Assembly: GCA_016874755.1 (NCBI GenBank)
Contig: VGTH01000053.1
Location: 1 to 35,953 of the forward strand
Reading direction: 5' to 3'
Source: Deltaproteobacteria bacterium
Lineage (GTDB): Bacteria > Desulfobacterota > Binatia > UBA9968
DNA length: 35,953 nucleotides
Position 1 is the stretch's first letter; each line of letters starts with the position of its first letter. Below the pieces are notes generated by a model. The model saw only the letters and a program-made list of their open reading frames with translations. It was not told where the DNA came from and did no database searches. The translations under genes and the position numbers were made by a program. Of this stretch, positions 4,089 to 28,953 are shown piece after piece.

Positions 4089-4100
4089 ATCGCGCGCCTC

Positions 4101-4676: not shown

Positions 4677-5666
4677 GATTTTAAACTCGCCCACCACGTT
4701 GGGCGCAAAGATTTCTTCCACTGTCGGCTTGCGCGCAAGCAGGCCCTGTTCACCCATGTAGCGGATCAAGTGTTCCAGCACGTGGCGATTGGCTTCGACG
4801 CCGTAGGGCCACCAGTCGGGGCCAAAGATTTCACGTAGTTGCTCTCGCTCCCACGGCAGCCAGGGCAGGGTGCAGGCCATGGTGTTCGAGATGTGCATGT
4901 TCTTGATCGCGACGTCTTTGGCTTCGCAGAAAGCTTTGTAGAGACTGCGGGCGATCCAGGGATTTTTTTCGTAAACTTCGCGCTTGATCACCAGCACATG
5001 CATGATCGGAAAGATCTTGGTGCGCTTGTAGTAGTCGATTTCTACGTCTTTGTAGTTGGGGAACAAACGTTTGATCTTCGGGTTCCCCTTCATGAACGAC
5101 GACGGCGCGCGGGCGGAGATCAGCACGTCGATTTCGCCGCTCTCCAACATGCCGTTCAACGTCTTGCCATCGGCGATCGGGTCGAGCTTGATCTCCGGCG
5201 GCAGAGTAAGCTTGACGCGCTCCTTGCGGCCGGCTTCTTCCTGGCCGCCGGTGAACCAATGCATGTCGGATGCTTTGACACCGTAGTCGTCGTTCAAGAA
5301 GCCGCGAACCCACACCGCGGCGGTAATCGAATATTCCGGCGCACCGACTTTCTTGCCTTTAAAGTCGGCGGCGGTCTTGATGCCGGAGTCGGTGTTGATG
5401 AACACGCAAGAATGGCGGAAGTAGCGCGACGGAAACACCGGTATCGCGACGAACGGCGAGTTGCCGCGGCTGATCATGGTCACATGATTGGACAACGACA
5501 TTTCGGAAACATCGAATTCTTGATGATGGCCCATGCGCCAGAAAATCTCTTCGGCTTCGAGCGGCACATAGTTGATGCGAATGCCTTCGGCTTGAACCTC
5601 GCCGGTGCGCAGCGCGAACGTGCGATCGTAAGCGCCGCAGCCGACGGTTAAAAATAATTTCTCCAC
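4674..5666 (-). CDS. Substrate-binding-like protein, 4,5-dihydroxyphthalate decarboxylase (Pht5) homologue
   Basis: This 330-residue protein resembles the Pht5/4,5-dihydroxyphthalate decarboxylase family, which shares the two-lobed fold of periplasmic binding proteins. Visible family segments are LRTGEVQAEGIRINYVPLE, MSLSNHVTMISRGNSPFVAIPVF, ADFKGKKVGAPEYSITAAVW and ESGEIDVLISARAPSSF. There is no signal peptide (it starts MEKLFLTVGCGAYD), which fits an enzyme or cytoplasmic protein rather than an exported one. GGAGAAG lies ahead of ATG 5666. It follows the permease gene by 92 bp on the same strand, so it may share that operon. Many relatives are annotated simply as ABC substrate-binding proteins, so decarboxylase activity is not proven. 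Confidence 0.75.
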   Translation of the reverse strand: MEKLFLTVGCGAYDRTFALRTGEVQAEGIRINYVPLEAEEIFWRMGHHQEFDVSEMSLSNHVTMISRGNSPFVAIPVFPSRYFRHSCVFINTDSGIKTAADFKGKKVGAPEYSITAAVWVRGFLNDDYGVKASDMHWFTGGQEEAGRKERVKLTLPPEIKLDPIADGKTLNGMLESGEIDVLISARAPSSFMKGNPKIKRLFPNYKDVEIDYYKRTKIFPIMHVLVIKREVYEKNPWIARSLYKAFCEAKDVAIKNMHISNTMACTLPWLPWEREQLREIFGPDWWPYGVEANRHVLEHLIRYMGEQGLLARKPTVEEIFAPNVVGEFKI

Positions 5667-5758
5667 GTAAACTTCTCCTTGTTAGTTATTGTTCTGAGAG
5701 TGAAGGATAGGAAACGGGTGATTGATGTGACCCGAAATTCTCAATTATCCATTTTCAA

Positions 5759-7516
5759 TTACTTCGTATCCCATCTCGAGTAGCGCTGTGCGATGGCGAT
5801 CAGGACCACGGAGATGACCGAAATCACCAAGCCGATTGCGGCGACGCGGCCGCGCATGCCATCGAGATAGAGAAAATAGAGCAGCGGCCCGAGGGGTTCT
5901 GAGCCAGGGCTGTAAAGAAAAAGCGTGGCGCTGAATTCGCGCAAGAAGATCGTCATTAGAATGATCCAGCCCGCCATGACGCCGGGCCGCATCATCGGAA
6001 TCAAAATGCGCCGGAAGGTCGCCATGAAACCGGCGCCGCAGACGATCGACGCTTCTTCCAGTTCTTTGTGGACTTGAATGATCGTGCTGGTGACGGCGCG
6101 CAGCCCATAGGGAAGAAACCGGGTAATGTAGGCAATGAGAATGATCCAGATCGTCGCGTAAACCGGAATCGGAAAATCGACGTAAGCCCACAACAGTCCG
6201 AGCGCCATGGCTGTGCCGGGAAACGCCCAGGGAATGAATACTAAACCTTCGATGATGCCGCGCCCGGCGAGTTTGGTTCGTACTGTGATATACGAAGCCA
6301 AGGAAGCGAGAATCATGCAGGCCGTGGCGCTGATGAAGGCCAGCAGTAAGCTGTTCAAGAAAGCTTTGTGCACCCGCGGTGTGGCCCAGACATATTCAAA
6401 ATGCGACATCGTCAGGTTCTGCCAGGTCTGCCAGGTCGGCACGTGATAGTAAGGGAGAATGGCGACCAGTGCCAAGACGAGAATCGGCAGGACCACGAGC
6501 AGTATCAACAACAGCGAAGCGACGCCGGCGGCGGCGTAGCGCCACGGTCCGAGCTCGATCTGATGCGGCCGGAAGCCCTTGCCGGTTACCGTGGAAAAAC
6601 TTTCGACCTGCGACGTGAAGCGGCGATAGAGATAAACGAAAATCAGCGCGATGAAAAGAATGCCGACACCGTAGGTGGCGGCGAGATTGTGATTGGTCGG
6701 AAACGACCCTAAGGCTTCGCGCCAGATCTTGGTCGTGAACACTTCGATGCGCGCCGGCAGGGCGATGATCGCCGGCGTGTCGAAGCTTTCGACGGCGCGA
6801 ACGAAGTTCAGCGTCGCGGCAGCGAGAATCGCCGGGCGCAGGAGCGGAAACGTTATGCGGCGCATGACGCCGAACTCATTGGACCCGAGGGTTTTCGCCG
6901 ATTCTTCCAGCGAGGGGTCCATGCTCTTCATGGCCGCGGCGATGATCAAGAAAGCCAGCGGAGTCAGGATCAGCGCTTCGACGTAGATCAAGCCGGTCAT
7001 CGAATAAATATTGAACGGCCCTTTTTCCATGCCGAAGAGTTTGACGAAAACGCCGTTGATCAGGCCGTTGCTCGGGTTGCAGAGCATGACCCAGGAAATC
7101 GACACGAGCATAGGCGGGAGAATGTTGGGAATAATCGCCGTCAGCTCGAACAAGCGGCGAAACGGTGCGTCGGTGCGGATGGTGATCCACGCCAGCGCCA
7201 GCGCAAAGATCACCGACAAGCCGGCGCTGCCGATGCCAAAGATGAACGAGTTCAACATCAGCGAGTAGGCTTCCGGGTCGCTGTAGGCGCGCACATAATT
7301 TTGCAGCGTGAAATTCCCCGGCACACCGAGCGGAGCGTCGGTCAAGCTGCCGTAGAAGAGAAAAAAGGTCGGGTAGAGGCTCAGGAAAGCGATGATGCTG
7401 CTGACGATGACAAAGACCCAACTCACCGGTTGGCTCAGGAAGGCGCCGAGGCGTGAGCGGCGCCATGCCGAGGTGTTGACGCGTTCGGCCGGCAGCGTGG
7501 CTTCGTTGATGGACAC
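5759..7516 (-). CDS. FbpB/iron(III)-type ABC transporter permease, fused two-domain
   Basis: This 585-residue inner-membrane permease contains two homologous BPD transporter domains with about twelve membrane segments. Each half carries an EAA-type cytoplasmic loop that contacts the ATPase: EESAKTLGSNEFGVMRRI near residue 205 and EEASIVCGAGFMATFRRI near residue 490. The duplicated layout is that of FbpB/ThiP-like permeases for ferric ions, thiamine or similar solutes. It starts 16 bp after the binding-protein gene at 7533 and should be co-transcribed with it. No ATPase gene (FbpC/ThiQ type) is present nearby, so an ATPase encoded elsewhere would have to serve it. The substrate cannot be assigned. 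Confidence 0.9.
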   Translation of the reverse strand: MSINEATLPAERVNTSAWRRSRLGAFLSQPVSWVFVIVSSIIAFLSLYPTFFLFYGSLTDAPLGVPGNFTLQNYVRAYSDPEAYSLMLNSFIFGIGSAGLSVIFALALAWITIRTDAPFRRLFELTAIIPNILPPMLVSISWVMLCNPSNGLINGVFVKLFGMEKGPFNIYSMTGLIYVEALILTPLAFLIIAAAMKSMDPSLEESAKTLGSNEFGVMRRITFPLLRPAILAAATLNFVRAVESFDTPAIIALPARIEVFTTKIWREALGSFPTNHNLAATYGVGILFIALIFVYLYRRFTSQVESFSTVTGKGFRPHQIELGPWRYAAAGVASLLLILLVVLPILVLALVAILPYYHVPTWQTWQNLTMSHFEYVWATPRVHKAFLNSLLLAFISATACMILASLASYITVRTKLAGRGIIEGLVFIPWAFPGTAMALGLLWAYVDFPIPVYATIWIILIAYITRFLPYGLRAVTSTIIQVHKELEEASIVCGAGFMATFRRILIPMMRPGVMAGWIILMTIFLREFSATLFLYSPGSEPLGPLLYFLYLDGMRGRVAAIGLVISVISVVLIAIAQRYSRWDTK

Positions 7517-7532
7517 GATCAGGCTCCCTTAA

Positions 7533-8540
7533 CTAACGCAGGAATATCTGCGTGTATTCTTTTTTCTTGTCGGCGAAGTCTTTGGTGCTCAGATCATCCA
7601 TCTCGACAAAGCCGATCTTGTCGGCGCCAGGCAGCGGCGGCAGCACCCCTTTGCGGTTCACGAACTCGCCCAGCTTCGCCATCGTGTTCATGCTTTCGTC
7701 GTCGAGAAAATAGTCGACGAATGCTTTGCCGGCGTTGACCCGCGGCGCCTTGGCTGCGAGCGCGATGTAGCTCGCGTCGCCGATCAGTTTGGGTTCTCGA
7801 ACGTAGTCGACAGGGGCGCCCTTTTTGCCGTGAATATAGGCGTACTTTACATAGGTGATGGCGACCGGTGTTTCACCGCTGGCTACTCGCTCGGCGGAAG
7901 GCAGCAGCGACTCGACCCAAATCGGCTTGTTGGCCGCGAGGTCACGCATAAACTTTTCCGATTTTTCCTTGCCCATGATTTTGTACAAGCTCGCCAGCCA
8001 TTGGGTGGTCGTGGTGTGTTGGGTCGGGTCGGGCATGACGATCTTGCCCTTGTACATCGGCTTGCCCAGATCATCGAGGGACTTGGGATACTCCGAGGCT
8101 TTCAAGCCGTTTTTGTTATAGACGATACCGACGACAACGTTGCGATAACGCGGGCCGAGATTCGGGTCGATGACTTCTTTGGGGTAGTCAGCGTTGGTGG
8201 GCGAATCGTATTTTTGAAAATAGCCCTCTTTTTGCATCAGGCGCATGACGTTATCGGCGGCTATGATGGCGTCGGCGATCGGCTTGCCGGCGCGAAACTC
8301 GCTCATGGCGCGGTCCATCACTTTGGTCGCGGAAGCGCGCCAGTACTCGGCCTCGATACCGGTCTTTTTCTTGAAGCTTTGGATGATGGCGTCAACGGTG
8401 TCGCCTTCTAGGGAGCCATAGATGATGACTTTGCCGTCCTTTTTCGCCGCTTCGATCAACTGCGGCGTTTGCCCGAGGGAAGTGCTGCCGGCGAGCGCAA
8501 AGCTGAGCGTCAAAACAACCCATTGGGTGAGTTTAAGCAT
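7533..8540 (-). CDS. FbpA-like extracellular substrate-binding protein
   Basis: This is a 335-residue periplasmic binding protein of the FbpA/AfuA (bacterial extracellular solute-binding family 1/6) type. ATG 8540 is chosen over the upstream in-frame start because AAGGAGAA lies just before it and a signal peptide follows (MLKLTQWVVLTLSFALAG, cleavage near STSLG-QT). Features include AKKDGKVIIYGSLEGDTVDAII near the N-terminus, the hinge region YNKNGLKASEYPKSLDDL, GKIVMPDPTQHTTTTQW and a C-terminal LGEFVNRKGVLPPLPG. It is the first gene of the minus-strand transporter operon. The paired tyrosines of classical ferric-binding FbpA were not confirmed, so the ligand may be another anion or organic molecule. 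Confidence 0.88.
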   Translation of the reverse strand: MLKLTQWVVLTLSFALAGSTSLGQTPQLIEAAKKDGKVIIYGSLEGDTVDAIIQSFKKKTGIEAEYWRASATKVMDRAMSEFRAGKPIADAIIAADNVMRLMQKEGYFQKYDSPTNADYPKEVIDPNLGPRYRNVVVGIVYNKNGLKASEYPKSLDDLGKPMYKGKIVMPDPTQHTTTTQWLASLYKIMGKEKSEKFMRDLAANKPIWVESLLPSAERVASGETPVAITYVKYAYIHGKKGAPVDYVREPKLIGDASYIALAAKAPRVNAGKAFVDYFLDDESMNTMAKLGEFVNRKGVLPPLPGADKIGFVEMDDLSTKDFADKKKEYTQIFLR

Positions 8541-8713
8541 GGCTTCTCCTTGGTAAAGTCGCCGCCTGAGCGGAGACGATAGTTTCAAATTTTACCTAGT
8601 GAGTCAAGCCGATTTCGCCCTCGAAGCCAGTCCGGTCGCCGGCCGCATTGACTCCGCTAATTGCCGATCATATAAAAGGTTTTCCACACAACGAAAGGGA
8701 GAAAATTCGATCG

Positions 8714-10099
8714 ATGGCTAATTTGGATTTGCTGGTAAAAAACGGCGAGGTCTGGACCCCGGGCGGCTTTGTCGAGGCCGATGTCGCGGTCAATGGCGGC
8801 AAGGTGATAGCGCTGGGAAAGCCGCCGGTGCTGCCGGATGCGGCGACGACGGTGATCGATGCCAAAGGCAAGAAAGTCATTCCTGGTTTGATCGATACGC
8901 ACACGCATCATCGCGATCCGGGTTTTACCTATAAAGAAGATATCACGACGGCGACCATGGCCGCGGCGGCGGGCGGTGTGACCTTGTCTATCGGCATGCC
9001 CAACGTGAACCCGCCAACCACGAACGTTGAGATCTACCGTAAGTTGGTGGAGCACCACAGTAAGAACGCGATTGTCGATTTCAATCACAATCCCTCCGGC
9101 ACGGTACCGGAGAATGTCGCAGCGATGGCCAAAGAAGGGCCGTTGGCATTCAAAATCTTCATGGTCAAAGACACCGGCCGTGACTATCCGCACATGCCCG
9201 GCATTGGGATCAACAACAACGGCGAGCTGTTCAAATGCTTCGAAGCGGTCGGCCAGACCGGTTTGCCGCTGATGGTTCATCCGCACGATCAGGATCTGAT
9301 GGACGAGATCGAAGGGCGCTACTGGAAGAAAGAAGACCGCAGCCCGCAGGCCTACGCCAAAGCGTATCGCGATTACGACGGCATCATTTGGGACACGGCC
9401 ATGGCGACGCTGTTTCGCATGCAAAAAGCGCTGGGCGCGCAATTGCACATTCTGCACATGAGCACACCGGAAGGTTTGGACATGCTGCGGCGTGCCAAAG
9501 ACGAAGGACGGCCGGTGAGCTGCGAGGTCAATCCCTGGGCGATGTTCTTGGGCACGTGGGAAAACGTCGAGAAGATGGGGCCCTATTGTCTCGGCTTCTG
9601 GGTGCCGCCCGATCACGTCAACGCGCTTTGGAAAGGCATCAACGACGGCACGGTCGACATCATCGGCACCGACCACGCGCCGCACACGATTGAAGAGAAA
9701 GAGCGTGGCTGGAAAGACATGTGGAGCTGCCCCGGGGGCGAGCCGCAGATCCAAGATTATCTGCGCTTGTTCCTAGACGCCGTGAACCAGGGCAAATTGA
9801 CGCTCGATCGGTTGGTTAGAATTTCCTCTTATAACCCAGCGAAGCTCTTCAACGTCTACCCTAAGAAAGGCGTGATCCAACCGGGCTCCGACGCCGACAT
9901 GGTGATTGTCGATATGAATAAAGAAGAGGTGATCAAGAACGAGACGACCTACACGAAGGTCGGCTGGACGCCTTACAACAATCGCAAAGTGAAGGGCGTG
10001 CCGATCCGCACCATCCTGCGCGGCAAGACCGTGATGGACGACGGCAAGATCGTCGGTAAACCGGGTGACGGGCAGTTGTGCAAGCCGATGGCGAAGTAA
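8714..10099 (+). CDS. Dihydropyrimidinase/hydantoinase-type cyclic amidohydrolase
   Basis: This 461-residue enzyme belongs to the dihydroorotase/hydantoinase branch of the amidohydrolase superfamily, which opens cyclic amide rings using a two-zinc centre. All expected ligands are present: His63 and His65 in DTHTHH, the carbamylated Lys147 in LAFKIFMVK, His189 in MVHPHD, His248 in ILHMS and Asp320 in GTDHAPH. The start ATG 8714 follows AAAGGGAG, and the longer frame from 8648 lacks a ribosome site. It is transcribed away from the FbpA-like operon, with a 173-bp gap holding both promoters, and ends at a strong terminator. Allantoinase, hydantoinase or dihydropyrimidinase activity cannot be separated here, though a role in nitrogen-ring catabolism is likely. 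Confidence 0.9.
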   Translation: MANLDLLVKNGEVWTPGGFVEADVAVNGGKVIALGKPPVLPDAATTVIDAKGKKVIPGLIDTHTHHRDPGFTYKEDITTATMAAAAGGVTLSIGMPNVNPPTTNVEIYRKLVEHHSKNAIVDFNHNPSGTVPENVAAMAKEGPLAFKIFMVKDTGRDYPHMPGIGINNNGELFKCFEAVGQTGLPLMVHPHDQDLMDEIEGRYWKKEDRSPQAYAKAYRDYDGIIWDTAMATLFRMQKALGAQLHILHMSTPEGLDMLRRAKDEGRPVSCEVNPWAMFLGTWENVEKMGPYCLGFWVPPDHVNALWKGINDGTVDIIGTDHAPHTIEEKERGWKDMWSCPGGEPQIQDYLRLFLDAVNQGKLTLDRLVRISSYNPAKLFNVYPKKGVIQPGSDADMVIVDMNKEEVIKNETTYTKVGWTPYNNRKVKGVPIRTILRGKTVMDDGKIVGKPGDGQLCKPMAK

Positions 10100-18095: not shown

Positions 18096-18509
18096 TCAAT
18101 TTGCCAGTAACGCGGCGAATTTTCTTGCGGTTAGGATTTGCGTAGATTTGTGGCGCTCTAATGAGAGCAAGCCACTTTTGTCACCCGTCACCAGATAGTC
18201 GGCATTGCCTGCTTCGGACAAAGCAAGCAGAAAATCATCGTTCGGGTCGGGCGAGCGTTTTACCCGCGGTAATCGACTAATCTCCTCCGCGAGTTCCTTG
18301 ACTTGATTTACAAGGCGGCCTGCTCGATGGGGTTTGATGAGTTTTGCGATGCGCGGTTTTTGCAGTGTGGCGCGTAACTCGGCGAGATGCTCAGTGCAGA
18401 TCAACAGCGTAAATTTACCGTCTTGCCAAGCATCGTATATGGTGGCGGGATGACCGGCAGGAGAAATCAACGAGGACACCAAAATATTGGTGTCGAGCAC
18501 CACACGCAT
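18096..18509 (-). CDS. PIN-domain toxin of a type II toxin-antitoxin pair
   Basis: This 137-residue PIN-domain protein is a metal-dependent RNase-like toxin of the 'putative toxin, PIN family' type. The acidic active-site residues are present: Asp6 in LDTNIL, Glu44 in HLAEL, Asp91/Asp92 in DPNDDFLLAL and Asp110 in VTGDKSGLL. Its ATG overlaps the stop of the upstream antitoxin gene by one base (TGATG), so the two are translated together, antitoxin first. RNA target unknown. Confidence 0.88.
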   Translation of the reverse strand: MRVVLDTNILVSSLISPAGHPATIYDAWQDGKFTLLICTEHLAELRATLQKPRIAKLIKPHRAGRLVNQVKELAEEISRLPRVKRSPDPNDDFLLALSEAGNADYLVTGDKSGLLSLERHKSTQILTARKFAALLAN

Positions 18510-18781
18510 CAGGGTTTAGCAGACTTCTTTCGACCGCGTCGTTCGGAGCGAACCTCGTCGACGGCATCGTCAACCAGCCGTTGCAATTTCTCCGGGTCGA
18601 GATCAGCATTGCGCATTCTGATATCCTGGACCGTTCGATGAAAGACGCGCCAGCGCACTGCCTCTTCAATAAACTTGGAGAGGTCGCCCTTCTTCATTCC
18701 CTGGGCACCTAAGAAAGTGCGCAGCGCGAGGTCGGTATCCCTCGAGACTTTGATATTCCAGCGAACCGATTCATCTTCCAT
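18509..18781 (-). CDS. Ribbon-helix-helix-type antitoxin
   Basis: This 90-residue protein lies immediately upstream of the PIN toxin and is translationally coupled to it. The N-terminal strand RWNIKVSRDTDLALRTFL, followed by KKGDLSKFIEEAVRWRVF, matches the beta-helix-helix arrangement of CopG/Arc-type DNA binders. The basic tail (RSERRGRKKSAKP) may contact toxin or DNA. GAGG lies six bases before ATG 18781. The upstream AT-rich stretch contains TATAAG on the minus strand, a possible -10 under autoregulation. Family assignment rests on pattern and context. Confidence 0.78.
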   Translation of the reverse strand: MEDESVRWNIKVSRDTDLALRTFLGAQGMKKGDLSKFIEEAVRWRVFHRTVQDIRMRNADLDPEKLQRLVDDAVDEVRSERRGRKKSAKP

Positions 18782-19512: not shown

Positions 19513-20958
19513 ATGATACTCTGTCACAATGCACGCCTGTTGACCTTAGACAAACTGCGGCCGGTTTTAGAAAGACAGCAGATCCTAGTCGATAACGGCG
19601 TGATTGCCGCCGTTGGCAAAGACCTCAAGATCGCTGGCTTGCCCATCCGCCAGCGCATCGACTGCACGGGCAAGATCGTCATGCCCGGCCTCATCAATAC
19701 CCATTCGCATCTGACCGAGATATTACAGCGCAGCTTTCGCGACAATCTGCGCATGGAAGTTTGGCGTGGCTATCGCGCGCGTACCGAAGAATTGGCCAAT
19801 CCCACGGCGGCGGAGATCGGTGCAGCGGCCGCGCTCGCTTGCGCCGAGATGCTGAAGAACGGAGTGACGGCGGTGGTCGATCATTTCTCGACCCGACCGG
19901 GACTTTCCGAGCCGAAAATGATGGCGATCGTTAGGGCGTTCGAGCAGACCGGCATTCGCGGTGTGTTAACACCGTCGCTGCTCGATCGGGATTTTGTCGA
20001 GATCGTCGCGGCTAAACGAGCTGCGCGGGCACAGGCTAAAAAACCGAAGGTTCCCTGGCAAGAACAAGTTCTACCGATGCTATCGCATCTAAAACAATCC
20101 GCCGCAACTGTGTCGTTAATGTTGGGTCCTTCGTCGCCGTTTAGCTGCAGCGACGAGTTGGTGCGGGAAGTGGTTGAGATGGCGGAGCAGCATGATTTAG
20201 GCATTCACACCCACTTACTTGAAACCAAGCTGCAGCGTTGGGGCGGCCGCCAGCTTTATCCCGAAGGCTTGGGCAAGCGCATGCAGCGGCTCGGCTTGTT
20301 TTCGCAACGGCTGTCGGCGGCGCACTGTGTGTGGGTCAACGAGAGAGAGATGGATGCGATGGCCGCGGCGGGGGTTAACGCGGTGCACAATCCGGCGAGC
20401 AATCTCAAACTGGGCAGCGGCATCGCACCGGTGGTGGCGATGAAAAAACGCGGCATTAACGTGTCGCTCGGCACCGACGGCGGCGATACCAGCGATAGCT
20501 ACACGATATTCGAACAGATTCGCCTGGCGGCGCTGCTGTCACGGGTGAATACCGAAAATTCCGATGAATGGGTGACAGCGCTCGACGCTTTGCGCATGGG
20601 AACGATCAACGGCGCGCAGGCGGTGCCGGCGTGGCGCGGCAAAATCGGCAAGATTGCGAAGGGCTACCGCGCCGATCTCGTCATTCTGCGACCGAACCTG
20701 CGGCTGACGCCAGCGGCGGACGTTGTCAATCAACTGGTTTTCTGTGAGAGCGGTCAGTCGGTGGATACCGTGATGGTGGACGGCAAAATTGTCGTCAAGG
20801 ACGGCCGCCTGCTCTCCATGCGTGAAGAAGAAGTTATGCGCAAGGTGCTGCCGATCAGCAGGAGAATGCAGCGCCATTACCGCGCGCTGGTCCACCAAGA
20901 GCCGCCGCAGAGCGAATCGACCGTGCGGCAACTTTATCGAAAGGCGTTTGATGTATAG
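19513..20958 (+). CDS. Amidohydrolase (Trz/Atz, guanine/SAH deaminase-like)
   Basis: This 481-residue enzyme belongs to the mononuclear-zinc amidohydrolase group that includes TrzN/AtzA chlorohydrolases, MtaD and 8-oxoguanine or guanine deaminases. These enzymes remove amino or chloro groups from nitrogen heterocycles. Metal and active-site residues are visible: His64 and His66 in NTHSH, His232/His234 in HTHLLE with Glu237, His271 in AAHCVW, His292 in VHNPASNLKLGSG and Asp322 in GTDGG. The C-terminus adds a basic tail. ATG 19513 has only a weak ribosome site. It is the first gene of the plus-strand operon leading to HyuA/HyuB, 39 bp before a binding protein. The exact substrate is not predictable. 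Confidence 0.88.
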   Translation: MILCHNARLLTLDKLRPVLERQQILVDNGVIAAVGKDLKIAGLPIRQRIDCTGKIVMPGLINTHSHLTEILQRSFRDNLRMEVWRGYRARTEELANPTAAEIGAAAALACAEMLKNGVTAVVDHFSTRPGLSEPKMMAIVRAFEQTGIRGVLTPSLLDRDFVEIVAAKRAARAQAKKPKVPWQEQVLPMLSHLKQSAATVSLMLGPSSPFSCSDELVREVVEMAEQHDLGIHTHLLETKLQRWGGRQLYPEGLGKRMQRLGLFSQRLSAAHCVWVNEREMDAMAAAGVNAVHNPASNLKLGSGIAPVVAMKKRGINVSLGTDGGDTSDSYTIFEQIRLAALLSRVNTENSDEWVTALDALRMGTINGAQAVPAWRGKIGKIAKGYRADLVILRPNLRLTPAADVVNQLVFCESGQSVDTVMVDGKIVVKDGRLLSMREEEVMRKVLPISRRMQRHYRALVHQEPPQSESTVRQLYRKAFDV

Positions 20959-20997
20959 TCGCGATCGCTAGAAACAAAAGAAGAGAAGGAGACGCCC

Positions 20998-21951
20998 ATG
21001 TTTCGTTACGGCAAATGGATCGTTCTGTTGGCGCTGCTCGCGTCGGCGCCCGCCCACGCGCAGAACGCGCGCACCAGCTACGGCGGCACGTCGGGATTCA
21101 ACGTGCCGATCTGGGTTGGCCAGGAAGCGGGTTTCTTCAAGAAACATGGCGTCAATTCAGAACTTGTATTGATCAGCGGGGATGCCGCGGCGTTTCAAGT
21201 AATGTTGGCCGGCGATCTGCAGTTTGCCAACGCTGCCGGCACCGCGGCGATTCAGGCCAATGTTCAGGGCGCCGACTTCGTGATCATCGCGTCGTCCTAC
21301 AACTTCATGCCCTACAGTTTTGTCGTGCGGCCGGAGATTCGTGCCGCGAGCGATCTCAAAGGCAAGGTCATGTCGGTGGCGCGGTTGGGCGGCATCAACG
21401 AATACGCTGCCTATTTTACGTTTGAGAAACTCGGGTTGGGGCCTAAGGATATGACCTTTGTGCAATCGGGTCCTGACGGCCAGCGCATCGCCGCGCTCCA
21501 GTCGGGCGCGGTGGCGGCCACGGTGTTAGCGCCGCCCGGGCTTTATGCGGCAACTTCGCTCGGCTTGAAAGTTTTGGCCGATCTCGGCGAATTGGGTATC
21601 AAATATCCGACCGGCACCATCGTCACACGCAAATCTTTTTTGGCCAGCAATCGAGCGTTGGCGAAGCGCTATTTGATGGGCTTTATCGAAGGGCTCAATC
21701 TTTACGCGCGCGACAAGGACTATACGCTGAAGGTCATGCAGAAATACGCGCGCTTGAGAGACAAAGACGCGATGGCGAAATCGCACGACTATTTCGTCAA
21801 GAATACTTCGGTGGTGCCAATGACCGATGTTGCCGCGATCAAGAACGCGCTGGTCGACAAAGCGGCGGGACGTAACCCGGAAGAGTTCTACGATAATTCG
21901 TTGATTCAGGAGTTGGTCAAGGAAGGGTTTGTCGATAAGTTGCCTAAATAG
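20998..21951 (+). CDS. ABC transporter substrate-binding protein, NMT1-like
   Basis: This 317-residue periplasmic binding protein has a clear signal peptide (MFRYGKWIVLLALLASAPAHA, cut before QNAR). The family layout is seen in GGTSGFNVPIWVGQEAGFFKKHG, LISGDAAAFQVMLAGDLQFANA, IRAASDLKGKVMSVARLGG and AALQSGAVAATVLAPP. AGAAGGAG lies ahead of ATG 20998. It is embedded in the amidohydrolase-M20-HyuAB operon and so probably delivers that pathway's substrate, yet no permease or ATPase is in the operon. It is related in family to the product of 1318-2271 but not a close copy. Confidence 0.9.
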   Translation: MFRYGKWIVLLALLASAPAHAQNARTSYGGTSGFNVPIWVGQEAGFFKKHGVNSELVLISGDAAAFQVMLAGDLQFANAAGTAAIQANVQGADFVIIASSYNFMPYSFVVRPEIRAASDLKGKVMSVARLGGINEYAAYFTFEKLGLGPKDMTFVQSGPDGQRIAALQSGAVAATVLAPPGLYAATSLGLKVLADLGELGIKYPTGTIVTRKSFLASNRALAKRYLMGFIEGLNLYARDKDYTLKVMQKYARLRDKDAMAKSHDYFVKNTSVVPMTDVAAIKNALVDKAAGRNPEEFYDNSLIQELVKEGFVDKLPK

Positions 21952-21976
21952 TAATTGGGACTGGGGGAAAATCTTC

Positions 21977-23242
21977 ATGGCGTTGAGCGCGCAAGAGCAG
22001 CGAGTACTTGAACTAATCGACGAGAAGGAACTGATCGATCTGGCCGTAGCCATGGGCAACATCACGGCACCGTCGGGCTACGAGCAGCCGATGGCGGACT
22101 TTGTGCTGCGCTGGCTGAACGACAACGGTTTCGAGCGATCGTTTCAGCAGCCGATCTGCGAGGGCCGCTCGAACACGATCGCGATTCTCAACGGCCAAGG
22201 CGGCGGGCATAATTTGATTTTCAACAGCCACATGGATTCCGAGCAGGGCATGCCGATGCGCTTGGACGAAGCGCCGCCGCCGGGGCCGACGGCGCGGGTC
22301 GATTACAATAAGCGGCGCATCTTCGGCCTGGCGGTGCAGAACGATCGCGGCCCGATGGCAGCTTTCATGATCGCCACCAAAGCGATCAAGCAAAGCGGCG
22401 TGAAACTGAACGGCGACATTATCATGACCATGGTCGTCGGCGAGATTGGCATGGGACCGGTGGACGAATTTCGCGGCGCGCGGTTTATCGGCAAGGGTTT
22501 CGGCAGCCGCCACGCGGTGACGCATGGCGTGAACGGCGATTTCGCCTTAATTGCCGAGACCACCGATTTCGGCGTGACGTGGATCGAGGCGGGTGCGGCC
22601 TATTTCAAAATCACCCTCGAAGGGCGCGGGTTCTACACCCCGCGCATCCCGCCGCGCGGCGCCGTCAAAGAGAATCCTAACGCGCTGATCAAAATGATAC
22701 CGGTCATTGAAGCGATCGAAAAATGGGCGGTGGAGTATGAGCACAAATATACAATCGATTACCCGGTCGGGAAAATGGTGCCGAAGGTGAGCATCGGCGC
22801 GATTCGCGCCGGCGCTCCCTATAAGCCGAGCACGACGCCGCGCAGCTGCAGCATCTACGTCGACGTGCGCGTGCCGCCGCCGATTTCTTTTTCTCAGGTG
22901 GAGAAGGAGTTGAAGCAGGTCGTCGCCGCCGTCGGACTCGGCGGCACCGTCGAGTGTTTCATGGCGCGCAAAGGCTACGAAGGGAAGAACGTCGAGCCGC
23001 TGGTCGACGCGATCCGTGCCGCCCATGCGGCGGTGCGCGGCAGCCAGCCGCCGCCGGTGGATACGCCGGAGACGAGCATGTGGCGCGACATTAATATATT
23101 TAACGAAGTCGGTATTCCCGCCGCGACCTTTGGGATGTCGCGCAAAAGCGCACCGGATGCAGCCGAGCGGTTCGTCGAGATTCAAGACATCGTCGACGCC
23201 GCAAAGATGTACGCACTGGTGGCGCTTAAGATTTGTGGCTGA
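21977..23242 (+). CDS. M20-family metallohydrolase (ArgE/DapE-like)
   Basis: This 421-residue protein is in the M20 peptidase/deacylase family, zinc enzymes that cleave peptide or amide bonds of N-acyl or N-carbamoyl amino acids. The first metal His-x-Asp is in FNSHMDSEQG (near residue 85). AVQNDRGPMAAF carries the bridging Asp region, and VVGEIGMGPVDE gives the catalytic Glu. A dimerisation-type insert (about 205-330) precedes the final SRKSAPDAAERF. ATG 21977 is preferred to a longer frame that would overlap the previous gene, and GGGGGA lies upstream. It is 25 bp after the binding-protein gene and 15 bp before hyuA. A hydrolytic step on the ring-opened product is a reasonable inference. 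Confidence 0.83.
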   Translation: MALSAQEQRVLELIDEKELIDLAVAMGNITAPSGYEQPMADFVLRWLNDNGFERSFQQPICEGRSNTIAILNGQGGGHNLIFNSHMDSEQGMPMRLDEAPPPGPTARVDYNKRRIFGLAVQNDRGPMAAFMIATKAIKQSGVKLNGDIIMTMVVGEIGMGPVDEFRGARFIGKGFGSRHAVTHGVNGDFALIAETTDFGVTWIEAGAAYFKITLEGRGFYTPRIPPRGAVKENPNALIKMIPVIEAIEKWAVEYEHKYTIDYPVGKMVPKVSIGAIRAGAPYKPSTTPRSCSIYVDVRVPPPISFSQVEKELKQVVAAVGLGGTVECFMARKGYEGKNVEPLVDAIRAAHAAVRGSQPPPVDTPETSMWRDINIFNEVGIPAATFGMSRKSAPDAAERFVEIQDIVDAAKMYALVALKICG

Positions 23243-23257
23243 CGAGCAGACCAACCT

Positions 23258-25363
23258 ATGAACTACGTGGTGGGTGTCGACATCGGCGGGACGTTTACCG
23301 ATTGTGTGGTGGTCGACGAAGCCGGCCAGATCACCATCGGTAAATCGCTTTCGACGCCCGATGATTTTTCCCGAGGCGCGTTGAACTCGGTGGCCGATGC
23401 GGCGCAGAACTTGGGCATCGATAACGTCGACACGCTGTTCCGCTCAACCCGCTTGTTTTTTCACGCATGCACCATCGGTGACAACACGTTGATCACCCGT
23501 GCCGGTGCCAAGACTGGGCTTCTGCTGACGCGCGGCTTTGGCGATACGCTGCACATGATGCGCGGCAAGGTCGCCGAAGGATTGACCGAGAACGAAACCG
23601 CGCATCGCTCTGCGCTGGTCAAGCCCGAGCCGTTCGTGCCGCGCCGCTCTGTCGAAGAGATCACCGAGCGCATCGACTACAAGGGCAAAGAGTTGATCCC
23701 GCTCGATGCCGAGGCCGCAGAGCAGGCGATCGATCGATTGGTTGCGCGCGGCGTCGAATCCTTCGCCATCTGTTTACTATGGTCGATCGTCAACGACGGC
23801 CACGAGCGGCAGCTCGCGGCGATTCTCAAAAACAAATACCCGCAGCTGTTTTTCTCATTGTCGAGCGAGGTGGCGCCCTATCTTGGCGAATACGAACGAT
23901 GCGCGACGACGGTTTTCAATGCCTACATCGGGCCGAAGATTTCTAGCTACTTGCAGAACTTGCAAAGGACCTTGAAATCTAAGGGGCTGGCTCGCGACCC
24001 GTTGATCATGCAGGCGTACGGCGGTGTCCTGGGCATCGAAGCGACCTGCAAGAACGCCGTGGGAGTTATCGAATCCGGCCCTGCCGCGGGCATCGTCGGC
24101 ACACGTTTTCTCGGCGAACACATCGGCGAGAAGAACATTCTCGCCACCGACATGGGCGGCACGACATTCAAAGTTAGCCTGGTGCGCGATGGTGTCATCG
24201 AGCGCGACTACAAGCCGGTAATTCTGCGCTACAATATTTTGTCGACCAAGATCTGGGTCGAGTCGATCGGCGCCGGCGGTGGTAGTATCGCCTGGATCGA
24301 CGGTGAAACCGGCTTGCTCAAAGTCGGGCCACAGGGCGCCGGCGCGGCGCCTGGGCCGGTCTGCTACGACGTTGGCGGCAGCGAGCCGACGGTTTCCGAC
24401 GCCGATCTAGTTCTCGGCTACTTGAACGAGAACTATTTTCTCGGCGGCCGTATGAAGCTCAATAAAGCCAAAGCGCTGGCGGCGCTGCGGCAGAAGATTG
24501 CCGGGCCGCTCAAAATGACCGAAGTTGAGGCCGCCAGCGGCATCTACCGTATCGCCAATTCCCACATGAGCGATCTGATCCGTAAAGCGACGGTGGAAAA
24601 GGGCCACGATCCGCGCAACTTCGTGTTGTTCGCCTTTGGCGGCGCGGCGCCGGTGCACGGCAGCCGCTACGCCGCGGAGCTTGGCGTGCGCCAGGTGGTG
24701 ATTCCTTTGACCGCGTCGGTGCACAGCGCCACCGGGCTGATCAGCTCCGATGTCGTGTATGAGTATGGCAAGTCGGATCACGTCGTGCTGCCGGTCGACT
24801 TGAGACGCGTCAACGATAATTTTTCCGAGCTCCTGCAGCGCGGCGTCAAAGAGCTTGGCGCCGCCGGCTTTGCGCCGAGCGACATTCAAGTGCGGCGCAG
24901 CGTCGACATGCGCTATCGCTATCAGATCCATGAACTGAACGTGCCGTTCGCCCCGGGCGCCGAAGCGATCACCGACGCTCACATGACCGAGCTGGCGGCG
25001 CATTTCGACGCAATGTACGAGCAGGCTTTCGGCCACGGCTCGGGGTATCGCGAGGCGGGTAAGGAGATTCTTACGTTCCGGCTCACGGTGGTCGGCATGC
25101 TTAACAAACCGGACATCAAAGCCGAAGCGCTGAGGAAATCCGACGGCAGCGCGGCGCGCAAAGGCGAGCGCGAGGTATACTTCGAGGAAAACCGCAAGTT
25201 CGCGCCAACGCGCGTGTACGACTTTGAGAAAATGCATCCCGGCACGGAGTTCGTCGGGCCGGCGGTGATCGAAACGCCGGTGACCACGGTGATTGTCAAT
25301 CCACGCGACCGCGTCGCAATGGATGGTTATCGTAATATTAGAATCTACGTCGGAGGAGCCTAA
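23258..25363 (+). CDS. hyuA: Hydantoinase/oxoprolinase family subunit A
   Basis: This 701-residue protein is the ATP-binding subunit of the N-methylhydantoinase/5-oxoprolinase/acetone-carboxylase family. These pairs use ATP to open lactams, hydantoins or imides, or to carboxylate small ketones. It has the actin-like nucleotide fold: phosphate-1 loop VGVDIGGTFTDCVVVDE (residues 5-21), phosphate-2 LATDMGGTTFKVSL near 296, and the family signature GAGAAPGPVCYDVGGSEPT near 365. Its stop overlaps the start of hyuB by one base (TAATG), giving 1:1 coupled synthesis. Full length for the family. Substrate specificity cannot be read from sequence, though the neighbouring amidohydrolase and M20 gene favour a nitrogen heterocycle. 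Confidence 0.92.
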   Translation: MNYVVGVDIGGTFTDCVVVDEAGQITIGKSLSTPDDFSRGALNSVADAAQNLGIDNVDTLFRSTRLFFHACTIGDNTLITRAGAKTGLLLTRGFGDTLHMMRGKVAEGLTENETAHRSALVKPEPFVPRRSVEEITERIDYKGKELIPLDAEAAEQAIDRLVARGVESFAICLLWSIVNDGHERQLAAILKNKYPQLFFSLSSEVAPYLGEYERCATTVFNAYIGPKISSYLQNLQRTLKSKGLARDPLIMQAYGGVLGIEATCKNAVGVIESGPAAGIVGTRFLGEHIGEKNILATDMGGTTFKVSLVRDGVIERDYKPVILRYNILSTKIWVESIGAGGGSIAWIDGETGLLKVGPQGAGAAPGPVCYDVGGSEPTVSDADLVLGYLNENYFLGGRMKLNKAKALAALRQKIAGPLKMTEVEAASGIYRIANSHMSDLIRKATVEKGHDPRNFVLFAFGGAAPVHGSRYAAELGVRQVVIPLTASVHSATGLISSDVVYEYGKSDHVVLPVDLRRVNDNFSELLQRGVKELGAAGFAPSDIQVRRSVDMRYRYQIHELNVPFAPGAEAITDAHMTELAAHFDAMYEQAFGHGSGYREAGKEILTFRLTVVGMLNKPDIKAEALRKSDGSAARKGEREVYFEENRKFAPTRVYDFEKMHPGTEFVGPAVIETPVTTVIVNPRDRVAMDGYRNIRIYVGGA

Positions 25364-27204
25364 TGGAGGCGGTTGTCAGCAGCGTCGATCCGGTTACTTT
25401 CGAGATCTTGTCGCATCGCGTCTACCAGATCGCCATGGAAATGGGCACGACGCTGGAACGCGTCGGCGGCACAGTGAACACGACACAGATGCACGACTAC
25501 ATGGCGGCGCTCTATCTCGCCAACGGCGACGTCCTGTGCGCCGGCGATGCCATGGGCTGGCATGTCGCCTGTGCCGGCGTCGCGGTCAAGCGCATCATTG
25601 AGCGCTTCGAGAAGCATGGCGGTATCTACCCCGACGATATCTTTTTGCTCAACGATCCGTACGTTGCGGCAATCCATCAGTCGGATGTTTACGTCGTGTC
25701 GCCGATCCACTTCAAAGGCAAACTGATGGGTTGGAGCGCGACGTTCGTTCACGTCATGGACATCGGCGCGCTGTCGCCTGGCGGCAACTCGCCGGAAGCT
25801 ACGGAGATTTGCCACGAAGGCATTCGCATCCCCGGCATCAAGCTGGTCGAGCGCGGCGAGCTGCGCCAAGATTTATTCGATGCGTTCATCAATATGACGC
25901 GCCAGCCGGTGATGGTTGGACTCGATCTCAAATGTGAGATCGCCGCCAACAACGTCGCCAAGTCGCGCATGCAGGACCTCTACGAACAGTTCGGTCCCGA
26001 GCTGGTGGCGGCGGTGTCGCAGGAGATGCTGCACTATTCGGAATCGATCCTGCGCAAGCGGCTGGAAGAAATTCCTGATGGCCTTTGGCGCGACAGTGGC
26101 AGCATCGAGGCAGGCGATACTTGGACGGTCGAAGTAGCGCTCAAAAAACAGGGGAGCCGTTTGCTGTTCGACTTCAGCGGCAGCAGCCCGCAGGCGAAAA
26201 AGGGCATCAACATGCCGTACCATGCAACCTTCGGCGCCTGCTACGAGGCGATACTCTGCACGCTGGCCTACGATTTGCCGAAAAATCACGGTGCGCTCAA
26301 CCCCATCGAAGTCATCGCCCCCGCGGGCACGGTGGTCAATTGCACAGCGCCGGCGCCGGTGTCGCTCAACACCACCTCCGGTGGCGCGACGGTAAAATAT
26401 GTCGCCAACTCGGTGATCATGCAGATGCTCGCCACCAGCGCGAAGTGGAATGGCGAAGTGATGGCGCTCAACGCCGGCCACCGCTTGGCACGCCATGCCG
26501 GCGTCAATCAGCACGGCAACTTTTATGTGTCGACGCTATCGGAAGGCGCGCTTGACGGCGTTGGCGCCGGCTCGTACAAAGACGGCGAAGACACCGGCAC
26601 CGGGCTGAGCTGTCACAACATCGAATGGCTCGAAGCCAACTTTCCCTTGCTCTATCTCTTCCGGCGCCACACGCCCGGTGGCGCGGGGGCGGGAAAGTAT
26701 CGCGGCGGCACAGGCAGCGAGTCGGCGCTGACGACCTACGACGCACCCAAGGGGAAAATCCGCGGCGTCGCCCTCGGCGTCGCCGGCTTGCGCAATTCCG
26801 GCCAGGGCATCTTTGGCGGTTATCCCGGCGCGCCGAGCTTGCTGTCGCTCGTTCAGGGCGCTCGCGTTACCGAGAAGATCGCCAGCAAAGAATCGCCCGA
26901 TCGCCTCGAAGAGCTTGGTGGCGAAAGCCAGCTTTTGCCTTATTGCGAATTCGATCTTGCGCCGGACGACATTCTCTACATGCGCATGTCGAGCGGCGGC
27001 GGCTACGGCGACCCGCTCGAACGCGAACCAGACAGGGTGCTGCGCGACGTCGCAGACGGCATCGTCTCGCGCCAGGACGCGCGCGCGATTTACGGTGTGG
27101 TGATCGATGGCGATGAGCCGGTGTTGGATCGCGTCGCGACGGATAAGCTGCGGGCGGAGTTGTTCAAACAGCGGTTGGAACAGTTCAAGTCCAACGGGAC
27201 GTAG
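25363..27204 (+). CDS. hyuB: Hydantoinase/oxoprolinase family subunit B
   Basis: This 613-residue partner subunit of HyuA belongs to the hydantoinase B/HyuB family. Supporting segments are DPVTFEILSHRVYQIAMEMG at the start, NDPYVAAIHQSDVYVVSPI near 100, FDFSGSSPQAKKGINMPYHA near 280, SGGATVKYVANSVIM near 345 and the C-terminal MSSGGGYGDPLEREP, a glycine-rich signature of the family. It overlaps hyuA by one base and ends the operon. Downstream, a long hairpin (27218-27298) separates it from the convergent amidase gene. Together with HyuA it should form a cytoplasmic ATP-dependent complex. Confidence 0.92.
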   Translation: MEAVVSSVDPVTFEILSHRVYQIAMEMGTTLERVGGTVNTTQMHDYMAALYLANGDVLCAGDAMGWHVACAGVAVKRIIERFEKHGGIYPDDIFLLNDPYVAAIHQSDVYVVSPIHFKGKLMGWSATFVHVMDIGALSPGGNSPEATEICHEGIRIPGIKLVERGELRQDLFDAFINMTRQPVMVGLDLKCEIAANNVAKSRMQDLYEQFGPELVAAVSQEMLHYSESILRKRLEEIPDGLWRDSGSIEAGDTWTVEVALKKQGSRLLFDFSGSSPQAKKGINMPYHATFGACYEAILCTLAYDLPKNHGALNPIEVIAPAGTVVNCTAPAPVSLNTTSGGATVKYVANSVIMQMLATSAKWNGEVMALNAGHRLARHAGVNQHGNFYVSTLSEGALDGVGAGSYKDGEDTGTGLSCHNIEWLEANFPLLYLFRRHTPGGAGAGKYRGGTGSESALTTYDAPKGKIRGVALGVAGLRNSGQGIFGGYPGAPSLLSLVQGARVTEKIASKESPDRLEELGGESQLLPYCEFDLAPDDILYMRMSSGGGYGDPLEREPDRVLRDVADGIVSRQDARAIYGVVIDGDEPVLDRVATDKLRAELFKQRLEQFKSNGT

Positions 27205-27217
27205 AGTTCGAATTATT

Positions 27218-27298
27218 CTCTCGCCAAGGCGCAGAGGCGCAAAGTTCGGAAATAAAAATCTAGACTCCGAACTTTGCGTCTTGGCGCCTTGGCGAGAG
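27218..27298. terminator. Long inverted repeat between convergent hyuB and amidase genes
   Basis: The 33-base arms at 27218-27250 and 27266-27298 match at 28 positions: CTCTCGCCAAGGCGC, then five mismatched bases, then CGCAAAGTTCGGA. The loop is AATAAAAATCTAGAC. The word GGCGCAAAG belongs to a repeat style also present at 3462-3490. Position between two converging stops suggests a bidirectional terminator, though there is no T-run. Confidence 0.65.
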
Positions 27299-27313
27299 AG
27301 ATTTCTGAACCGT

Positions 27314-28753
27314 TCACAGCGGCGGATTTCGCTTATGCCACGCGGTGCTGCGCTCGTAGGCATCAGCGACTTGAAACACGATATCTTCGCGGAACGGCGG
27401 CGCGACGATCTGCATACCGATCGGCAGTCCTTTCGATGAGTAGCCGCAGCAAACGCTCATGTCCGGGAGCCCAGTGACATTGAACGGAATCGTGTAGCGA
27501 GTTAGGAAATTCCCCGCGCGATCTTGCAGATTAATGTTTTTGCCATCGGCTTCGATGTAGCCGCGGTTACAATCGTCGATGCTCGGCGCCGGCGCGAAGA
27601 TGGTCGGCGCAACAATTAACTGGACTGATTTAAAAGCTTCATCGAACTCTTGGCAGATCAGCCGGCGCACGCGCTGGGCATGGACGTACACCGGCGCAGG
27701 GGTCAAGAGACCGGCGATCAAGTTGTACAGCAGCCCCGGACTATAGTCTCTCGGCCGGGTGCGCAAATAATGATCGTGATCGGAGTTGGCCTCGGGCCGC
27801 GTGCTCGCCGCTTGCGCCGCGGGGATCAGATCGATGTGCGGAATCTCAATCTCCTGGGTTTTCATGCCGAGCGATTTGAGAGTTCTCAAAGCTTCGTCGA
27901 ACGCTTGGCGCACTTCGCTAACCGTCGCCTGATCGAAATAATTTTTGATTAGTCCGATTTTCATGCCCTTGACCGGAGCACCGAGGGTTTTCGTATAGTT
28001 CATGATCGGCGCATCGGAGCTGATCGGATCTTTCGGATCGTAGCCCGCTGTGTCATTGAGGACGAGCGCGCAATCTCTGACGCTGCGCGTGAAAATCCCG
28101 AAATGATTTACGGTGTAGCCGCCGGTGCCGGCGACGCCGCCGTAGGAGCTGATCCTACCGAAGGTCGGCTTCAAGCCGACGGTGCCGCAGAGCGACGCCG
28201 GATTGCGCACCGAGCCGGCGCTATCGGTGCCGATGGAGCCCATGCACATACCGGCTGCCACGGCGACCGCTGAGCCGCTGCTCGACCCGCCGGGTATGCA
28301 GCTTGTGTCCCAAGGGTTGTATGGTGTGCCGTAAAACGGGTTGATGCTGTTACTGCCCTTGGCCCACTCGTGCATGTTGGTCTTGCCGAGAATGATCGTT
28401 CCCGCGGCGCGCAGCCGCTCGACCACCGTCGCGTCGTGATTGGGCACCCAGTCGGCGAGGATCTTTGAGCCGGCGGTGGTGACCACGCCTTTGGTGCAAA
28501 TATTGTCTTTGATGGAAAACGGAATACCGTGGAGCGGCCCGCGATAGTTGCCCTGGCGAATCTCGCGCTCGGCTTTTTTGGCTGCGGCTAAAGCTTCATC
28601 TTCGCACATGGCGAGATAGGCGTTGAGTTTCGGATTAAGCTTCCCGATCCGATCGAGATAGTTCTTGGCGAGTTCCAGCGGTGAGACTTGTTTTTTCTTG
28701 ATCAGCGGCGCGACTTCGCTGATCGTCAGCCCTGCGAGATCGAGGTCCTTCAT
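27314..28753 (-). CDS. Amidase signature family hydrolase (GatA/AtzE-like)
   Basis: This 479-residue amidase-signature enzyme cleaves amide C-N bonds. The Ser-Ser-Lys triad is in place: Lys82 in PFSIKDNI, a cis-Ser in PGGSSSGSA (155-161) and the nucleophile Ser181 in TDSAGSVRNPA. GLKPTFGRIS and other family signatures follow. Overall length is near GatA, but the organism would need a separate GatA/GatB pair, and no gatB is here. Its ATG overlaps the stop of a GatC-like small gene by four bases (ATGA), a pairing also known for AtzE with AtzG. It converges on the hyuAB operon. Substrate unknown, but a role in the neighbouring nitrogen-compound pathway is plausible. Confidence 0.9.
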   Translation of the reverse strand: MKDLDLAGLTISEVAPLIKKKQVSPLELAKNYLDRIGKLNPKLNAYLAMCEDEALAAAKKAEREIRQGNYRGPLHGIPFSIKDNICTKGVVTTAGSKILADWVPNHDATVVERLRAAGTIILGKTNMHEWAKGSNSINPFYGTPYNPWDTSCIPGGSSSGSAVAVAAGMCMGSIGTDSAGSVRNPASLCGTVGLKPTFGRISSYGGVAGTGGYTVNHFGIFTRSVRDCALVLNDTAGYDPKDPISSDAPIMNYTKTLGAPVKGMKIGLIKNYFDQATVSEVRQAFDEALRTLKSLGMKTQEIEIPHIDLIPAAQAASTRPEANSDHDHYLRTRPRDYSPGLLYNLIAGLLTPAPVYVHAQRVRRLICQEFDEAFKSVQLIVAPTIFAPAPSIDDCNRGYIEADGKNINLQDRAGNFLTRYTIPFNVTGLPDMSVCCGYSSKGLPIGMQIVAPPFREDIVFQVADAYERSTAWHKRNPPL

Positions 28754-28953
28754 TTTTTCTTTCCCTTCTGCGCAGGCGTTGCGATGACCCGCTTGTCGAC
28801 TTTCGTGAGCGGCGTGATGTCATCGACGTCGACTTCGAAGAGTGGCCGAAACAGCAGCGCGGCCTCCTCGGCCTGCTGTGCCACGATGTCGATTTCCTTG
28901 TCGGTGAGCTTGAAACCGTATTCGTCATTCAACCTGCGCACGGCGTCCTTCAT
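28750..28953 (-). CDS. GatC/AtzG-like small amidase partner
   Basis: This 67-residue protein is encoded immediately upstream of the amidase with a four-base ATGA overlap. The helical N-terminus (LTDKEIDIVAQQAEEAALLF) followed by LFEVDVDDITPL resembles the GatC pattern of two helices and a VD-x-x-x-P strand, as in GatC or the AtzG/DUF4089 subunits that stabilise amidases. The lysine-rich tail (QKGKKK) is unusual. GGGAGAGAG lies upstream of ATG 28953. No member of this exact size is certain to me, so partner function is inferred from context and pattern. Confidence 0.7.
   Translation of the reverse strand: MKDAVRRLNDEYGFKLTDKEIDIVAQQAEEAALLFRPLFEVDVDDITPLTKVDKRVIATPAQKGKKK

Follow-up and report, generated by a model that had tools for sequence, protein, structure and literature searches.

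A modular gene cluster of an uncultured Binatia lineage that may serve the catabolism of cyclic nitrogen compounds

Do seven adjacent genes of an uncultured bacterium form a catabolic unit and, if so, what kind of compound would that unit break down? The genes lie at positions 19,513 to 28,953 of a 35,953-nucleotide stretch of DNA from Deltaproteobacteria bacterium (Desulfobacterota; Binatia; UBA9968), hereafter the window, which is contig C53 (VGTH01000053.1) of a genome (G000) of 5.56 Mb in 101 contigs that is 99.55% complete. The original prediction, made from the letters of the window alone, had taken them for an island that degrades an N-heterocycle. We find that the clustering of these genes is not due to chance. 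Each gene can be assigned to a family, the catalytic residues are conserved, and the genes are linked recurrently and non-randomly in relatives. The cluster is modular, with no fixed pathway; from these observations we infer the substrate, the order of the steps and the participation of all the genes in a single pathway.

The layout of the locus is exactly as predicted. The ORF (open reading frame) map confirms all seven genes and their coordinates, with a plus-strand run encoding a COG0402-type metal aminohydrolase (AH), a periplasmic binding protein, an M20-fold enzyme, HyuA and HyuB, separated by 39, 25, 15 and -1 bp. Across a gap of 109 bp, this run converges on a coupled minus-strand pair, an amidase (AMD) and a small GatC-like partner, whose reading frames share 4 bp. 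The AH-to-HyuB run contains neither a permease nor an ATPase gene of the ATP-binding cassette (ABC) type, and a scan for promoters and terminators found fewer sites than in shuffled sequence.

The linkage of these genes in relatives exceeds that expected from random placement. HyuA and AMD were searched for in 148 genomes of the class, and expected linkage was calculated for uniform random placement in 4.5–5 Mb, a null that is lenient for catabolic genes; the observed counts are lower bounds, many genomes having had only part of their candidates scored. At 11 of 53 HyuA places, AMD is found no further than 10 kb away, compared to approximately 1 expected; these places fall in 11 of the 18 genomes carrying a HyuA of this kind (53 of 61 HyuA matches were used, eight at ≤47% identity being dropped, with 51 AMD matches at ≥54% and all 40 matches to the gamma subunit described below). 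Similarly, 7 of 14 same-family AMD places (≥54%) have an M20 relative no more than 10 kb away, where 0.25 would be expected, and AH is near AMD at 7 of 32 same-family places, where 0.46 would be expected. These two counts are based on 74 of 75 M20 matches and 53 of 54 AH matches, with second fragments omitted at G002:C261 and G008:C42, respectively.

The linked genes occur in several distinct arrangements. In the first, AH-HyuA-HyuB, with or without a gamma gene, converges on AMD and its partner, as in the window and in G002:C261 (L040); a variant in G008:C42 (L043) has AH beyond the AMD-partner pair. These are the two loci in which AH, HyuA, HyuB, AMD and partner are all linked, with identities to the window of 62, 63, 59, 72 and 71% in L040 and of 66, 83, 78, 75 and 61% in L043. 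The second arrangement places partner-AMD-M20 beside HyuAB (L229, L230, L239), and the third, from one genus, is AMD-HyuA-HyuB-gamma (L231-L236; two of these stretches stop within HyuB). In L237 and L238 the gene immediately preceding HyuA encodes an AH relative (35–37% identity), and L232 and L235 have such a relative close to HyuAB; a relative of the binding protein (56% identity) is found ∼2.4 kb from HyuA in G015:C276 (L255).

Several observations weigh against a single, conserved catabolic unit. An AH orthologue accompanies HyuAB, AMD and partner in only two other genomes, and one of them (G008, 67% complete) has breaks in the reading frames of AH and AMD, which may reflect assembly error or decay. 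The linkage counts also include vertically inherited copies. Of the 11 HyuA-AMD places, five come from the family of the window genome, where they represent three genera, and six from one genus of another family of the order; because those six belong to one genus, the independent events number fewer than 11. The M20 genes near AMD, the window's own aside, are relatives of 31–36% identity (41% over one fragment), and the four distant ones that were aligned differ in motif; since they are distant and motif-divergent, a shared function cannot be taken for granted. Of the seven AH-AMD places, four are convergent pairs of paralogues (AH 33–37%, AMD 40–43%), and in the own-genome copy of this pair AH has a phosphoribosyltransferase as its neighbour. 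Moreover, AH orthologues of ≥60% identity in five other genomes are found with HyuAB and AMD in two and without them in two, the G012 contig (3.8 kb) being too short; the unaccompanied copies (60%; G015:C106 and G007:C15) have no HyuAB or AMD in the 20-kb stretches inspected, where their neighbours are binding proteins and further amidohydrolases. M20 orthologues of 64–81% are apart from AH, HyuAB and AMD in four longer stretches (the remaining stretch, at 3.3 kb, does not extend far enough to tell), with none of these genes near the copies of 79–81% identity in G022, G011 and G015. Finally, none of the genes in the run could be recognised as encoding a regulator.

The exact gene set is therefore rejected as a conserved unit, in that orthologues of AH and of M20 are found unaccompanied by the other genes. 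What survives of the predicted island is a true cluster of catabolic type, with AH, HyuAB and AMD plus partner linked also in L040 and L043, but not a fixed set. Loci that lack the amidase pair or the amidohydrolase, which the original prediction had named as evidence against itself, were found in part: besides those in G015 and G007 and the unaccompanied M20 copies of 79–81% identity, an AH orthologue is missing from the HyuAB and AMD loci of G006, of G009 and of six genomes that share a genus, although two of the six have an AH relative of 36–37% identity nearby. Beyond the class the genes are rare, with strict cut-offs applied to phylum samples of 297 genomes yielding HyuA in 3, AMD in 1 and AH in 1, the own genome included each time, and thus almost nothing outside the class; plasmid records held only relatives below 60% identity.

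Two further observations concern the relatives themselves. Among six genes that were scanned next to the M20 copy of G011, two encode transporters and the other four a beta-propeller, an Amidohydro_2 protein, an AbiEii-type protein and a GT87 protein. The frame interruptions lie at 3695-5117 and 7769-8603 of L043 (AMD and AH, respectively; G008) and at 3391-5410 of L237 (HyuA; G003), and could in each case be assembly error or decay.

Could local shuffling in a gene-rich catabolic neighbourhood have gathered unrelated hydrolases here, with HyuA-HyuB and AMD-partner the only true pairs? The own genome has 15 HyuB genes, a large family expansion, and several AH, M20 and AMD paralogues, which would supply material for such a mosaic; the unaccompanied M20 (79–81%) and AH (60%; G015, G007) orthologues point the same way, as do a HyuA (contig C60) and a HyuB-gamma (contig C24) that occur apart. 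However, three gene pairs are linked beyond random placement, in at least three arrangements, even if the uniform null is lenient for catabolic genes, and we consider an accidental assembly unlikely, while giving it real weight.

If the genes instead belong to a modular catabolic cluster, the individual proteins should indicate its chemistry. The original prediction assigned each of them to a family, and Pfam matches bear this out for AH, the binding protein, HyuA, HyuB and AMD, while the M20 protein proves to be of a particular kind. AH (19513-20958, plus strand; 481 amino acids) matches Amidohydro_1 with an E-value of 4.9e-54, and its best NCBIfam models, PRK06038, 5'-deoxyadenosine deaminase and 8-oxoguanine deaminase, all score far under cut-off; indeed none of the 25 listed family models (60 matched) reaches its cut-off, the best scoring 286 versus 609 bits. 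The best PDB match is MTA/SAH deaminase 4f0r (5e-54). Residues H64, H66, H234, E237, H271 and D322 are invariant among five aligned sequences, and we take them to be the HxH, H, E, H and D set of the active site, which comprises metal ligands and the catalytic Glu, His and Asp. The adjacent binding protein (20998-21951, plus strand; 317 amino acids) is NMT1/THI5-like (PF09084, 5.1e-17), and such a protein together with a COG0402 enzyme would suggest a heterocyclic substrate.

Elsewhere in the window, a second, distant amidohydrolase gene (8648-10099, plus strand) is divergent from genes for a binding protein and an ABC permease-type protein (4674-8588, minus strand), and a dienelactone-hydrolase-type gene (404-2271, plus strand) is followed by another NMT1-like binding protein. 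Upstream of AH, a PIN-domain protein of the toxin-antitoxin kind is encoded at 18096-18781 on the minus strand, with a 90-residue ORF directly upstream of it.

HyuA (23258-25363, plus strand; 701 amino acids; Hydantoinase_A, 1.7e-82) is the ATP-binding (ASKHA) subunit, in whose translation the ATP motifs DIGGTFTD, DMGGT and GAAPGP are seen, and HyuB (25363-27204, plus strand; 613 amino acids; Hydantoinase_B, 1.7e-115) is the metal-binding subunit, with a tetrad D45, H105, D108 and H130 that aligns with D41, H99, D102 and H124 of CapB. Their family includes both two-subunit ATP-dependent cyclic-amide hydrolases and ketone carboxylases with a four-cysteine gamma subunit, as described in PMC5214803 and PMC8453981. 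Because the HyuAB family thus includes carboxylases, the claim that every enzyme of the island acts on C–N bonds was too strong.

Relatives of the window HyuAB bring this ambiguity to a point, as many are accompanied by a small gamma-type subunit. Both of the nearest neighbourhoods encode a small zinc-ribbon protein after HyuB, which scores 23.3 (L040, a pass) and 19.0 (L043, just under) against the Pfam acetone carboxylase gamma cut-off of 21. This mini gamma is 83–90 amino acids long in relatives, occurs in 21 of the 148 genomes and is found no more than 10 kb from HyuA at 26 of the 53 HyuA places; all 14 copies aligned have two CxxC pairs. Among 12 gamma-bearing loci, which were chosen for having gamma, it is a separate gene in seven and forms a C-terminal fusion with HyuB in five (L230, L232, L233, L235 and L236, four of the five from one genus). 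The fusions argue that gamma is part of the same enzyme. Mini gamma found no match in plasmid records, and its alignment matched 4 of 395 genomes in a phylum sample, own genome included.

No gamma-like frame was found after HyuB in the window. The site that the mini-gamma gene occupies in close relatives is taken here by a palindromic intergenic repeat (27210-27306), between the convergent HyuB and AMD genes, that has 54 matches in the genome (the strands of the palindrome counted apart, and 40 of 94 candidates scored) and looks like a repetitive extragenic palindromic (REP)-type element. In a tree, the window HyuB groups with its closest relatives, two gamma-bearing HyuBs (support 0.845 and 1.0); loss of gamma from the window copy is the simplest reading, although gamma-bearing and gamma-free copies are interleaved. 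Separately, we noted three incomplete sets: G000:C60:20434-22530 (L241) is a HyuA without HyuB, 79% identical to the window HyuA; G000:C24:6775-8855 (L249) is a HyuB-gamma without HyuA, 81% identical to the window HyuB; and G015:C99 (L250) has a HyuB-gamma alone. The first two, on separate contigs, are possibly one split enzyme.

HyuAB could therefore be an ATP-dependent carboxylase, like acetone or acetophenone carboxylase, in which case a ketone or aromatic compound would be carboxylated and then degraded, and the amide enzymes would act on other parts of the molecule. In favour of this explanation, the top PDB scores of both HyuA and HyuB are to acetophenone carboxylase subunits, although for HyuA these are near level (ApcC, 388.5 bits; caprolactamase CapA, 385.3), and the best model for HyuB is ApcD, at 209 bits versus 200 for caprolactamase beta (cut-off 1000). 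The gamma-type subunits of the nearest relatives, downstream of HyuB as in acetone carboxylase or fused to it, are in keeping with a carboxylase, and so are the arylmalonate-decarboxylase-type and UbiD proteins among the neighbours in relatives. By contrast, the window is without gamma, and the best model for HyuA is caprolactamase alpha, at 571 bits (cut-off 1000) versus 437 for ApcC. The subunit sizes (701 and 613) are also nearer to those of caprolactamase (696 and 581) than to those of acetophenone carboxylase (732 and 684) or acetone carboxylase (717–727 and 776), with sizes taken from PDB chain lengths and not from the criteria in PMC5214803, whose alpha and beta names do not match those chains. 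On balance, carboxylation seems the less probable role for the window enzyme, yet the ambiguity of the family counts against a purely hydrolytic pathway.

The M20 gene (21977-23242, plus strand; ATG start, with an alternative in-frame TTG start at 21929) encodes 421 amino acids with a Peptidase_M20 match (1.7e-9), and its product is a member of the 5-nitroanthranilate aminohydrolase (NaaA) type. The best PDB matches are NaaA structures 5k8m and 5k8p (E-value ∼3e-100, residues 9–420). Ordinary M20 enzymes have a bridging Asp at the position of Asn122 and a Glu pair at that of Gly-Glu-Ile; the window protein has Asn122 and Gly-Glu-Ile, atypical motifs that it has in common with NaaA, and H85, D87, N122, E156 and E194 are identical to NaaA at aligned positions. 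NaaA removes an amino group hydrolytically from an aromatic ring, according to PMC10306065. Against a direct transfer of this function, Arg289 of NaaA, a residue that differs between the PDB sequences 5k8m and 5k8p, corresponds to Thr286 in the window protein, and Arg at this position is absent from all five of the closest homologues aligned; because of this replacement, 5-nitroanthranilate itself is an unlikely substrate. An M20 deacylase acting on an N-carbamoyl product was also considered, and is weakened in that NaaA is by far the nearest solved relative, the next M20 structure reaching only 5e-5.

AMD (27314-28753, minus strand; 479 amino acids) is an amidase-signature enzyme of the GatA/AtzE-like kind (PF01425, 3.2e-119), in which K82, S157, S158 and S181 are invariant among 12 aligned sequences; K82, S157/S158 and S181 presumably form the Lys-Ser-Ser triad. 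Its partner (28750-28953, minus strand; 67 amino acids) is sub-threshold against Pfam GatC when considered alone (E-value 0.033, 14.8 of 23 bits); its homologues, however, match GatC more often than any other family (7 of 9, best 1e-4), and thus the predicted likeness to GatC appears weak for the single protein and clearer for the family. The partner was found by tblastn beside AMD at 10 of the 16 AMD loci of relatives (≥54%) inspected, and was not detected by tblastn in the loci of one genus (L231-L236). Modelled alone, it forms two helices with a mean predicted local distance difference test (pLDDT) score of 75, and five of the six Foldseek matches to this model are small chains of GatC-containing complexes, none of them significant (E-value ≥0.9). 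We also noted a paralogous amidase, 39% identical to AMD, on another contig of the genome (G000:C25; L044 12453-14047), preceded by a 63-residue ORF that resembles the small partner by eye.

Although gatA is the best NCBIfam model for AMD (361 bits) and the partner resembles GatC, it is very improbable, and we reject, that the pair is a second tRNA amidotransferase (GatCA) outside catabolism: AMD falls short of the 481 bits required for gatA, the genome encodes a GatC with a full score elsewhere (C15), so that the pair is extra, and AMD-type genes occur in up to five copies per genome, some beside HyuAB or M20.

What might the modular cluster do? With moderate confidence, we propose that the locus serves the catabolism of an imported small cyclic nitrogen compound. 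The NMT1-like protein would deliver the compound, and AH would hydrolyse an exocyclic substituent (an amino or similar leaving group) to give a ring carbonyl. HyuA would phosphorylate this carbonyl with ATP, HyuB would open the cyclic amide at its metal site, and the AMD/GatC-like complex could hydrolyse the resulting open-chain amide or ureide. The NaaA-like protein, an accessory that is swapped among relatives, may remove another C–N bond, most likely one to an arylamine-type or amide nitrogen. The close spacing of the genes, their recurrent linkage, the opening of cyclic amides with ATP by members of the HyuAB family and the predicted active-site residues present in AH, HyuB, M20 and AMD support this proposal, in which an N-heterocycle is still only inferred as the substrate. 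A more ambitious version, which we regard as doubtful, is an undescribed pathway in which a COG0402 aminohydrolase, a three-part HyuA/HyuB/mini-gamma branch, a GatCA-derived amidase and interchangeable NaaA/M20 aminohydrolases would dismantle an N-heteroaromatic compound, with the gamma branch bridging the hydantoinases and the ketone carboxylases.

Every protein of the locus comes from a known family, and each class catalyses known chemistry. Limited literature searches of open-licence papers turned up neither this combination of genes nor a HyuB that is accompanied by gamma or fused to it in this way. If the proposal is right, it would provide a testable route by which an uncultured lineage uses ring nitrogen compounds as a carbon or nitrogen source, and would bring together an ATP-dependent ring-opening enzyme, an aminohydrolase of the NaaA type and an amidase derived from GatCA. 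Fusions of gamma to HyuB, moreover, offer a direct handle on the role of the four-cysteine gamma, in a family that has hydrolases without it and carboxylases with it.

How does the locus compare with known systems? AH is like MTA/SAH deaminase, 8-oxoguanine deaminase and the TrzN/AtzA group in its family (COG0402) and in its active-site set, assuming the residue roles given above, and is under the curated cut-off for each specific member among the 25 listed models. The M20 protein is like NaaA (PDB 5k8m) in its near full-length match and set of atypical motifs, but does not keep Arg289. The closest functional analogue of the AMD pair is AtzE-AtzG, the 1-carboxybiuret amidohydrolase of cyanuric acid catabolism in Pseudomonas sp. 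ADP, which likewise pairs an amidase-signature enzyme with a small neighbouring protein of the GatC kind, in a setting of nitrogen-compound catabolism; AtzG is a non-catalytic, GatC-derived partner that AtzE needs for solubility (PMC6219798). The resemblance to AtzE-AtzG that had been predicted holds for this gene pairing, but membership fails on score and on neighbours: AMD is below both curated AtzE cut-offs (341.1 versus 461 and 338.5 versus 425.75 bits), no Pfam match to AtzD or to AtzH-type (DUF3225) proteins was obtained among the 30 window ORFs scanned, and the pair is found beside HyuAB and the NaaA-type protein.

HyuAB, in turn, differs from each of its nearest described counterparts. 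Acetone carboxylase has a third gene, encoding the four-cysteine gamma downstream of acxB, that is absent from the window, and the apcABCD(E) set of acetophenone carboxylase, with its second ATP subunit, is not matched by a run that contains one HyuA. Caprolactamase CapAB is approached by both subunits, at 571 and 200 bits, each under the 1000-bit cut-off. With two-subunit hydantoinases and lactamases, the window shares the HyuA-HyuB order, with a 1-bp overlap and no gamma, as well as ATP motifs and an Asp-His-Asp-His metal site, which are also carboxylase traits and thus do not discriminate. The scores of the window HyuAB lie between those of the hydrolase and the carboxylase members of the family, and whereas the hydantoinases of section 7 of PMC5214803 are without gamma, relatives of the window enzyme have either a mini gamma or a HyuB-gamma fusion.

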